Shown: positions 23,094-49,368 of the stretch, in pieces
How the letters are laid out: each line of letters opens with the position of its first letter
How positions within the stretch are numbered: the stretch's first letter is position 1
Assembly: GCF_001027285.1 (NCBI RefSeq)
Contig: NZ_CP011509.1
Location: 2,984,501 to 3,048,500 of the forward strand
Direction: 5' to 3'
Length of the DNA stretch: 64,000 nt
DNA from: Archangium gephyra
GTDB taxonomy: Bacteria; Myxococcota; Myxococcia; Myxococcales; Myxococcaceae
Translations under genes and position numbers: made by a program
Notes under the pieces: model-generated
Database searches by the model: none
The model's input: the letters and a program-made list of their open reading frames with translations, nothing else
Told to the model about the DNA's origin: nothing

Positions 23094-23146
23094 GGGGGGA
23101 CGTGACTCTAATCCCCTTCAGGGAAGTGACCGAGGGGGAAGTACTT

Positions 23147-23181
23147 CCCCTCTCCCCTCGGGAGAGGGTCGGGGTGAGGGT
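23147..23181 (+). repeat. Palindromic dispersed repeat, copy 2
   Basis: CCCCTCTCCCCTCGGGAGAG followed by GGGTGAGGGT. With copy 3 at 23247-23282, which is inverted relative to it, it could form a larger stem across about 135 bases between rtcB and the lipoprotein gene. Confidence 0.85.
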
Positions 23182-23246
23182 ATCCGGGCCCGTTCTTCAA
23201 CCCGTGGCCCACCGTGTGGACAGGGGTTCAACCCTGGGTCCGTGGC

Positions 23247-23282
23247 ACCCTCACCCCGTCCCTCTCCCGGAGGGCGAGGGGA
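23247..23282 (-). repeat. Palindromic dispersed repeat, copy 3 (inverted)
   Basis: ACCCTCACCCCGTCCCTCTC followed by CCGGAGGGCGAGGGGA. It lies 43 bases downstream of the rtcB stop, and read on the minus strand its hairpin could serve as a 3' end structure for the rtcB transcript. Confidence 0.85.
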
Positions 23283-23325
23283 AATGGGCGCGGGTCCTCG
23301 CATGTGTCCACGGACAGGTGGTGCT

Positions 23326-46343: not shown

Positions 46344-47375
46344 ATGTCCGACTCCGCCGCCCACGATTTCCACGGTCACGCCCACTTCACCGCTCCGCCT
46401 CCGGGTGTCGTCGTCCGCCATGACTGGACGCTCCCCGAGGTGCGCGCCCTCTACGAGCTGCCCCTGCTGGAGCTCGTCCACAAGGCGCAGAGCGTCCACC
46501 GCGCCGTCTTCCAGGACAACAAGGTGCAGCTGTGCTCGCTGCTGTCCATCAAGACGGGCGGCTGCCCCGAGGACTGCGGCTATTGCCCCCAGGCCGCGCG
46601 CTACCACAAGGACACCGGCCTGCAGGCCGAGAAGCTCATGTCCGTGCCCTCCGTGCTGGACGCCGCCTCCAAGGCCCGCGCCGCCGGTGCCACCCGCTTC
46701 TGCATGGGCGCCGCCTGGCGCGAGGTGAAGGACGGGCCCCAGTTCGACAACGTCCTGGAGATGGTCCGCGGCGTGAAGGCGCTCGGCATGGAGGCCTGTG
46801 CCACGCTCGGCATGCTCACCGACAGCCAGGCGAAGCGTCTCAAGGAAGCCGGCCTCTCCGCCTACAACCACAACCTCGACACCTCCGAGGACAAGTACGC
46901 GGACATCATCTCCACCCGGACCTATGAGGACCGGCTCAACACCCTCGAGCGCGTGCGCCAGGCCGGCATCTCCGTGTGCTCCGGTGGCATCATCGGCCTG
47001 GGCGAGTCCGTGGATGACCGCTGCAAGCTCCTGCTCACGCTCTCCAACCAGGAGGTCCACCCCGAGTCCGTTCCCATCAACGCGCTCGTCGCGGTGAAGG
47101 GCACGCCGCTCCAGGACCAGAAGCCCGTGCAGACCGTGGAGATGGTCCGCACCATCGCCACCGCCCGCATCCTCATGCCCATGGCCATGGTGCGGCTGTC
47201 CGCCGGCCGCATGCAGATGAACGAGGAGGCCCAGCTGCTGTGCATGCTCGCCGGTGCCAACTCGCTCTTCTTCGGCGAGAAGCTCCTCACCACCGGCAAC
47301 CCCGAGTACACCCAGGACATGGCCCTCCTGGAGAAGGCTGGCATCCGCCCCCTGGAGCCGGATACGTCGCGGTAA
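46344..47375 (+). CDS. bioB: Biotin synthase
   Basis: The 343-residue radical SAM enzyme inserts sulphur into dethiobiotin. The CxxxCxxC cluster motif is in [24 protein letters not shown] and the second-cluster Arg/Cys residues ([16 protein letters not shown]) follow. It starts at an ATG preceded by GAGGAG. A BirA-like operator lies 49 bases upstream. Its stop TAA overlaps a bioF ATG as TAATG, so bioB, bioF and bioD form one operon. About 30 extra residues precede the family core at the N-terminus. Confidence 0.97.
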
Positions 47376-48604
47376 TGACCCGGGATTCGCGACACCCTCA
47401 CCCTTTCCCTCTCCCGGAGGGCGAGGGGAGTTTGGGCTCAGTGGGGGCCACGGTGGCCACCGGGTGGGCCCTCGCGGACATGGACTCCCTGTCCTCCCGC
47501 GGCCTCAAGCGGTTCCTCGAGCCACTCGACTCTCCCCAGGGCCCCCTCGTCCGCGTGGGCGGGGAGACGCTCGTCAACTTCTCCTCCAACGACTACCTGG
47601 GCCTCGCCGCCTCGCCCTCCGTGCGCGCCGCCGCCATCGCCGCCCTGGAGAGCCATGGGGTGGGTTCCGGTGCCAGCCGGCTCGTCGTGGGTGACACCAC
47701 CGTCCACCAGCGGCTGGAGGCCCGGCTCGCCGCCTTCGAGCGGGCCGAGGCCGCGCTCCTCTTCAACTCGGGCTATGCCGCCAACGTCGGCACCCTGCAG
47801 GCCCTCGTGGGCCCCGAGGACGCCGTCTTCTCCGACGCCCTCAACCACGCCTCCCTCATCGACGGCTGCCGCCTCTCGCGCGCCCGCACCGTCGTCTACC
47901 CGCATGCCGACGTCGAGGCGCTCGACCGCGCTCTCGCCTCCACTCCCGCACGCCGGCGTCTCGTCGTCACCGACACCGTGTTCTCCATGGACGGGGACCA
48001 TGCTCCCCTGCGGGAGCTTGTCGGCGTCTGCCGCGCCCATGGGGCCGCGCTCCTCGTGGACGAGGCCCATGCCACCGGCGTGCTGGGCTCCCGTGGCGCC
48101 GGACTGTGCGAGGAGCTGGGGCTCTCCGACGCCGTCGACGTGCGCATGGGCACCTTGAGCAAGGCCTTCGGCGTGCTGGGCGCGTACATCTGCGCTTCCC
48201 GCCCCGTGGTGGAGCTCGTCCTCAACCGCGCCCGGCCCCTCGTCTTCTCCACCGCCCTGCCCGCCGCCCTGTGCGCCGCCGCCGGGGCCGCCGTGGACAT
48301 CGTCGAGCACGATGACGCCCTGCGCGCCCGTCTCTGGCGCAACATCCGCCGCTTCTCCCAGGGCCTGCGCTCGCTCGGCTTCGCCGCCGAGCCCCGGAGC
48401 GCCATCTTCCCCGTCATCGTGGGCGAGCCCGGTCTCGCCGTCTCCGCGGCCCGCGCCCTGCGCTCCAAGGGGTTGCTGGTGAAGGCCATCCGCCCTCCCA
48501 CCGTCCCCGAGGGCACCAGCCGCCTGCGCTTCTGTCTCTCCGCCGCCCATACCGAGGGCCATGTGGACCTCGCCCTCGAGGGGCTGCGCTCACTGCGACT
48601 CTGA
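47375..48604 (+). CDS. bioF: 8-amino-7-oxononanoate synthase
   Basis: This PLP enzyme condenses pimeloyl thioester with alanine in biotin synthesis. Motifs: [51 protein letters not shown] and the PLP Lys in [13 protein letters not shown]. The ATG at 47375 overlaps the bioB stop (TAATG) and gives 409 residues. Residues 7-18 ([12 protein letters not shown]) are then encoded by the dispersed repeat. A start at GTG 47441 or ATG 47480, after the repeat, would give lengths closer to other BioF proteins. Both forms may be made. Confidence 0.93.
47392..47430 (-). repeat. Palindromic dispersed repeat, copy 5 (within bioF 5' region)
   Basis: ACACCCTCACCCTTTCCCTC followed by TCCCGGAGGGCGAGGGGAG. Inserted 16 bases after the bioB stop, it stays open in the bioF frame and codes [12 protein letters not shown]. 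Confidence 0.87.
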
Positions 48605-48624
48605 ATCTCCAAGTGGGAGGTCAT

Positions 48625-49368
48625 GTGGCAACCCGAGGTTCCCGGCACCCTCACCCCGTCCCTCTCCCGGAGGGAGAGGGGAAATGGCCACGGTTCTTCG
48701 TCACGGGGACCGATACTGGAGTCGGCAAGACGCAGGCTTCACGGGCCCTGCTCTCCCTGCTCGCCGATGCCGGGCTCTCCCCCCAGGGCTTCAAGCCCTA
48801 TGAGAGCGGGTGTGCCTCCCTCTCCGCCCCCTCCGACGCGCTCTCCCTGCGCGAGGCCGCCCGGAGTGCGCTGCCCCTCGACATCGTCTGCCCCCACCGC
48901 TTCCGCGCGCCCCTGGCTCCCGGCGTCGCCGCGCGCCGCCTCGGCCGCGAGCCGGATTGGAACACCACCCTCGCCGCCTGGGAGCGCGTGCGCCACGGCT
49001 CCGTCGTCGTCGAGGGCGCTGGCGGCCTCTTCGTTCCCCTCGACTCCTCCCACGACGTCATCGACCTCATCTCCACCCTCGGGCTCCCCGTCCTGCTCGT
49101 CGCCCGCGCCGGCCTGGGCACGCTCAACCACACCGCCCTGTCCCTCGAGGCCCTCGCCGCGCGCAACATCCCTGTCGCGGCCGTGCTCCTCTCCCGCAGC
49201 ACTCCCTCGCGTGACCCCTCCGAGCGCGACAATCCCTCCCTCCTCTCCGAGCGCCACCACATCCAGGTCCTCGGTCCAGTTCCCTACCTGGAGGATCCAC
49301 GCCGTCGCCACGCGGCCTTCCGCAAGGCACTCGCTCCACTCGTGCCCGAACGCGCGCGAGGCCGATAA
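48625..49368 (+). CDS. bioD: Dethiobiotin synthetase with repeat-encoded N-terminus
   Basis: BioD closes the ureido ring of dethiobiotin using ATP and CO2. The P-loop FFVTGTDTGVGKTQ, the substrate Lys in GFKPYESG and VVVEGAGGLFVPL are clear. In other BioD proteins the start codon lies only a few residues before the FVTGTDTG strand. Here no start codon lies between it and the repeat, so translation must begin upstream: GTG 48625 (GGGAGG 4 bases before) or GTG 48613. Residues 8-20 (HPHPVPLPEGEGK) come from the palindromic repeat. The rest of the protein is normal, 247 residues in all. Confidence 0.92.
   Translation: MATRGSRHPHPVPLPEGEGKWPRFFVTGTDTGVGKTQASRALLSLLADAGLSPQGFKPYESGCASLSAPSDALSLREAARSALPLDIVCPHRFRAPLAPGVAARRLGREPDWNTTLAAWERVRHGSVVVEGAGGLFVPLDSSHDVIDLISTLGLPVLLVARAGLGTLNHTALSLEALAARNIPVAAVLLSRSTPSRDPSERDNPSLLSERHHIQVLGPVPYLEDPRRRHAAFRKALAPLVPERARGR
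48646..48683 (-). repeat. Palindromic dispersed repeat, copy 6 (within bioD 5' end)
   Basis: CACCCTCACCCCGTCCCTCT followed by CCCGGAGGGAGAGGGGAA. It covers codons 8-20 of bioD and uses the same reading frame as copy 5 in bioF. Confidence 0.87.

Follow-up and report, generated by a model that had tools for sequence, protein, structure and literature searches.

The TMECO intrastrand-triplex motif is reportedly always intergenic in Escherichia coli MG1655 (K-12) and has a highest count per genome of 143, and triplex formation was shown there for E. coli sequences (Holder et al., 2015, PMC4666352). Rickettsia palindromic elements are elements of ~150 bp with a conserved ORF, found in frame in unrelated genes to which they add a recurrent peptide (PMC10969869). 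The CCCTCTCCC-GGGAGAGGG repeats of Enterobacter sp. 638 are described as present in one hundred copies, often at gene 3' ends, with a presumed role in termination (PMC2869309).

In the window, the whole 64,000-nucleotide stretch of Archangium gephyra DNA that was analysed, the beginning of bioD contains a repeat comparable to all of these. It matches the printed TMECO pattern exactly, with three 9-nt blocks and a high copy number, and is by that pattern a candidate triplex former; it differs in its 467 exact copies in this genome (G000), some of them within reading frames. With the Rickettsia elements it shares in-frame copies in several unrelated genes (bioD, bioF, an AroD-AroE-like linker and NRPS loops); however, it is no ~150-bp element with a conserved RPE ORF, consisting instead of a 34-nt core with weak flanks and apparently unrelated sequence, in a myxobacterium. 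The palindrome itself is identical to that of Enterobacter sp. 638. The bioD repeat would work like a Rickettsia palindromic element, but judged by its letters it is a TMECO motif. A search of open-licence papers retrieved no report of a coding TMECO, nor any paper with the repeat peptide strings.

Start codon, reading frame and repeat of bioD

The genes bioB, bioF and bioD lie in a row in the window, and the product of bioD is a dethiobiotin synthase, with a family score above the curated cut-off and a Walker A motif. The features of the gene are:

48615..48620, + strand: GGGAGG, likely Shine-Dalgarno sequence of bioD; GTGGGAGGT precedes the start in G000, G002, G003, G004 and G005, not in G008
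48625..49368, + strand: bioD, dethiobiotin synthase, 247 aa (TIGR00347, 131.2 bits, cut-off 83.3; PF13500, 124.9 bits, cut-off 27)
48625..48627, + strand: GTG, best start codon of bioD, outside the repeat; GTG/TTG at this place in five carriers and G003; surrounding columns do not fit the repeat
~48630..~48693, + strand: repeat with weakly conserved flanks (flank-column fit), read as ~20 BioD residues
48647..48680, - strand: exact match to the TMECO intrastrand-triplex pattern (PMC4666352)
48660..48680, + strand: palindrome CCCTCTCCC-GGA-GGGAGAGGG
48706..48732, + strand: Walker A, GTDTGVGKT, invariant or nearly so in 19 aligned sequences

The bioF stop (48602-48604) is followed by GTGGGAGGTCAT and then by GTG 48625, from which the frame stays open across the palindromic repeat into FFVTGTDTGVGKT: GTG(48625) GCA ACC CGA GGT TCC CGG CAC CCT CAC CCC GTC CCT CTC CCG GAG GGA GAG GGG AAA TGG CCA CGG TTC TTC GTC ACG GGG ACC GAT ACT GGA. 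Four in-frame codons (AAA TGG CCA CGG) separate the repeat from the first P-loop strand. None of the seven codons ATG, GTG, TTG, CTG, ATT, ATC and ATA occurs in frame between the repeat and the Walker A strand, as a preliminary description had stated for start codons in general, and the check for non-AUG starts that it proposed yielded no alternative after the repeat. Another in-frame GTG is present upstream, at 48613; since GGGAGG overlaps it, 48625 is the better start.

The printed pattern, CCCTCNCCCN3-6GGGNGAGGGN3GGGNGAGGG, is matched without deviation on the minus strand at 48647-48680, and a consensus built from 130 distinct copies shows a core that resembles CACCCTCACCCCGTCCCTCTCCCGGAGGGAGAGGGG, the flanks being weaker. 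The edges were examined with a fixed-register matrix from which the tested copy was left out, the score being compared with 2000 shuffles. Columns -16 to -2 of the left flank fit the repeat in both bioD and bioF (0/2000 shuffles as good in either gene), and columns -24 to -18 do not (262/2000 in bioD, 1126/2000 in bioF), which places the left edge in bioD after the start codon. The right flank (columns +36 to +47) fits in bioD (1/2000) and not clearly in bioF (151/2000). A gapped alignment of the left edge to the spacers of paired elements was not significant, so this edge rests on the matrix test. Because the flanks fit from ~48630 to ~48693, the repeat-like part of BioD amounts to about 20 residues following Met1-Ala2, and the start codon is not part of the repeat. 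The repeat extends beyond the peptide HPHPVPLPEGEGK given in the preliminary description; the proposal made there that the repeat supplies the N-terminus of BioD holds for the leader and fails for the start codon, which appears native: at the equivalent position the repeat-free bioD of G032 has GGAGG, followed by TTG GCC.

bioD in related genomes

Reading nine genomes codon by codon around the bioD start, we found the repeat in frame and at the same place in five (G000, G002, G004, G005 and G008). Their start codon is GTG or TTG, and the spacing from the repeat to FFVTG is equal, except for a 21-nt tandem duplication in G004. In G003 the start and the repeat edges are kept and 33 nt of the core are missing, so that the indels seen in relatives (+21 nt and -33 nt) are multiples of three. 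In G008 GTGGGAGGT is absent and a further in-frame GTG lies upstream. Three genomes lack the repeat in bioD: G001, which belongs to the same genus and has 503 motif copies genome-wide, and G032 and G015, of a neighbouring genus, which have no motif copy genome-wide and carry a start and a short leader at the bioD site. With the start and the frame kept in five genomes, translation across the repeat, which the preliminary description held to be unavoidable, is the reading that the sequences favour.

Among all 57 bioD loci, the Walker A motif was caught in 47 (10 loci were not read), and the repeat peptide was found in seven, namely the five carriers and records L061 and L063; around the bioD start L061 is identical to G004, L062 to G001 and L063 to G008. 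A record of A. violaceum displays this arrangement as well. A tree of bioF and bioD joined G000 with G004 (96) and G032 with G015 (99), its nodes between carriers and non-carriers being weak (22 to 73). One gain of the bioD repeat in Archangium with later losses would be the simplest reading, not a proved one, because the tree is weak at the relevant nodes.

Copies in the genome and in other genes

The left part of the repeat, with up to 2 mismatches, has 507 copies in the 12.49-Mb genome (231 forward, 276 reverse), far beyond chance as judged from reversed-pattern controls (0 and 1). The full motif is present in 17 of 59 genomes, the reversed control being 0 in every one, the present genome included. 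Exact copies number 467 in G000, 503 in G001, 580 in G002, 248 in G003, 567 in G004, 505 in G005, 228 in G008, 126 in G012, 212 in G016, and none in G032 or G015. The distribution is patchy: G012 and G016 belong to other genera of the same family, and most other genera searched had none or few.

For a closer view we used 130 copies from 90 fetched loci and the window; they were picked from the exact matches listed (up to 7.8 Mb), so that the sample does not represent the whole genome and is biased with regard to diverged copies. Coding segments were predicted from codon scores by a simple gene finder, for which 34 ORFs of the window served as training set. The predicted segments fully enclose 8 of the 130 copies, which are not fully independent, and overlap 2 more in part, whereas 82.1% of random 36-nt windows fall inside them, so most sampled copies outside bioD conform to the intergenic position of TMECO, from which the bioD copy, in frame in five genomes, departs. 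Classed by looser rules (a stricter first classification did not list bioD at all), 26 copies lie 5' of a coding segment, 8 inside, 4 3' of one and 92 at none. The 8 inside copies comprise 7 in NRPS genes and 1 in a 425-aa ORF. Among the 26 copies located 5', a start codon between repeat and segment is missing only in bioD and in L017, a locus cut near its end.

Inverted pairs of the motif are frequent: 27 distinct ones were counted in the sampled loci, among them the window pair 23145-23283, with 75-91 nt separating the starts of the two arms. The copy in bioD may thus be one half of a larger unit. The spacers of these pairs look similar, perhaps forming a small MITE-like unit. A search for a RAYT mobiliser gave three Y1_Tnp matches in the genome, at 23.3 to 23.9 bits barely above the cut-off of 23.

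The repeat is also in frame in bioF, directly upstream of bioD:

47375..48604, + strand: bioF, with its ATG overlapping the bioB stop (TIGR00858, 459.4 bits, cut-off 426.45)
47394..47427, - strand: second exact TMECO match, in frame in the N-terminal region of bioF (12-residue peptide)

Here, within 47375-47430 of the window, the repeat follows right after the start, and it is found in all six same-genus genomes (bioF of G008 was not covered). In G032, whose bioF lacks it, the start codon is a GTG that overlaps the bioB stop. The conserved VATxWA comes after the repeat, as do in-frame TTG, GTG and GTG codons in G000, which makes read-through less certain in bioF.

In-frame copies were found inside further proteins. 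The 425-aa ORF (L130, 847-2124, minus strand) is tentatively an AroD-AroE-like fusion, a proposal drawn from the sequence itself and from a Shikimate_dh_N match below threshold (22.8 bits, cut-off 27). Its linker (L155-L170; 16 loci, 2 of them not read) contains the repeat in frame in 7 of the 14 linkers read (G000 to G005 and G008), and those of G009, G012, G015, G016, G017, G018 and G019 are without it. In four G000 stretches (L151-L154, on contig C1 near 5.02, 5.48, 5.52 and 7.35 Mb) in which AMP-binding_C was matched, 7 of the 10 NRPS adenylation-domain loops caught by motif contain the repeat in the reverse frame (12-residue peptide), and 3 modules do not. Copies in frame were also seen in a spermidine-synthase/MFS-like protein (L178, 2-2329, minus strand) and in a protein without a Pfam match (L181, 2-1822, minus strand), the latter with two; both were reached through peptide matches and are not an unbiased sample. 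The conversion of a repeat into coding sequence, put forward earlier as rare, is supported by bioD in related genomes and is not unique to this gene, the Rickettsia elements providing a precedent.

Probable origin and consequences of the in-frame repeat

We consider it very probable that a TMECO-type repeat landed just after the native bioD start in an ancestor of Archangium and is now read in frame as a tolerated leader. The repeat, either singly or as one arm of an inverted pair, would have inserted just 3' of the native start. Translation would begin at this GTG/TTG (48625) and proceed across the repeat in its stop-free frame, yielding MATRGSRHPHPVPLPEGEGKWPR ahead of the first P-loop strand, and later changes would have kept the bioD frame. 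A short, variable and disordered leader would allow BioD to tolerate the repeat, perhaps near-neutrally. In an AlphaFold2 model built with 19 sequences, residues 1-19 have pLDDT < 50 and the first strand spans 23-28, which makes a disordered leader that accepts insertions plausible. Calling the enzyme essential, as was done at first, was too strong a wording, as biotin synthesis is conditionally essential. The lack of GTGGGAGGT and the extra GTG in G008, the repeat-free bioD of G001 despite its 503 copies, the weak tree nodes and the gapped left-flank test count against this explanation.

The repeat might instead be kept in bioF and bioD for a role in expression, such as forming an RNA hairpin or a DNA triplex close to where operon genes begin, coding being a by-product. 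Its presence at the starts of both genes, in six of six bioF genes of the genus and intact in five bioD genes, speaks for such a role, but a 125-nt region of the mRNA does not exceed shuffled sequences in stability (z 0.21), the bioD copy is missing in G001 and its core is lost in G003, and copies also occur mid-gene in unrelated genes, so we regard this as improbable. That the repeat is untranslated, with GGAGGGAGAGGGG as the Shine-Dalgarno sequence for an ATG at 48684..48686 (+ strand) and a frameshift or sequencing error (the latter named earlier, near 48687, as a possible refutation) hiding a short leader, is hardly credible. GAGAGGGGAAATG does resemble a ribosome binding site and start, but this ATG, rejected as the bioD start, lies outside the bioD frame in G000 and does not occur in G002, G005 and G008, carriers with the same open frame in their assemblies.

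Under the preferred reading, insertion of the repeat after the native bioD start, a motif reported from E. coli as confined to intergenic DNA here belongs to the coding sequence of core enzymes. More generally, TMECO-type repeats in Archangium could be recurrent protein-coding palindromes that sit in frame just behind start codons, as in bioF and bioD, or within a linker between domains and NRPS adenylation-domain loops. With frame and orientation differing between sites, they would act as flexible cassettes kept genus-wide by some core enzymes, a proposal we make tentatively and with some doubt. The natural controls, repeat-free relatives and repeat-free NRPS modules, make the cost or benefit of insertion directly testable. 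N-termini rich in HPHPxPLPEGEG can be genuine coding sequence, and call for checking rather than automatic trimming.
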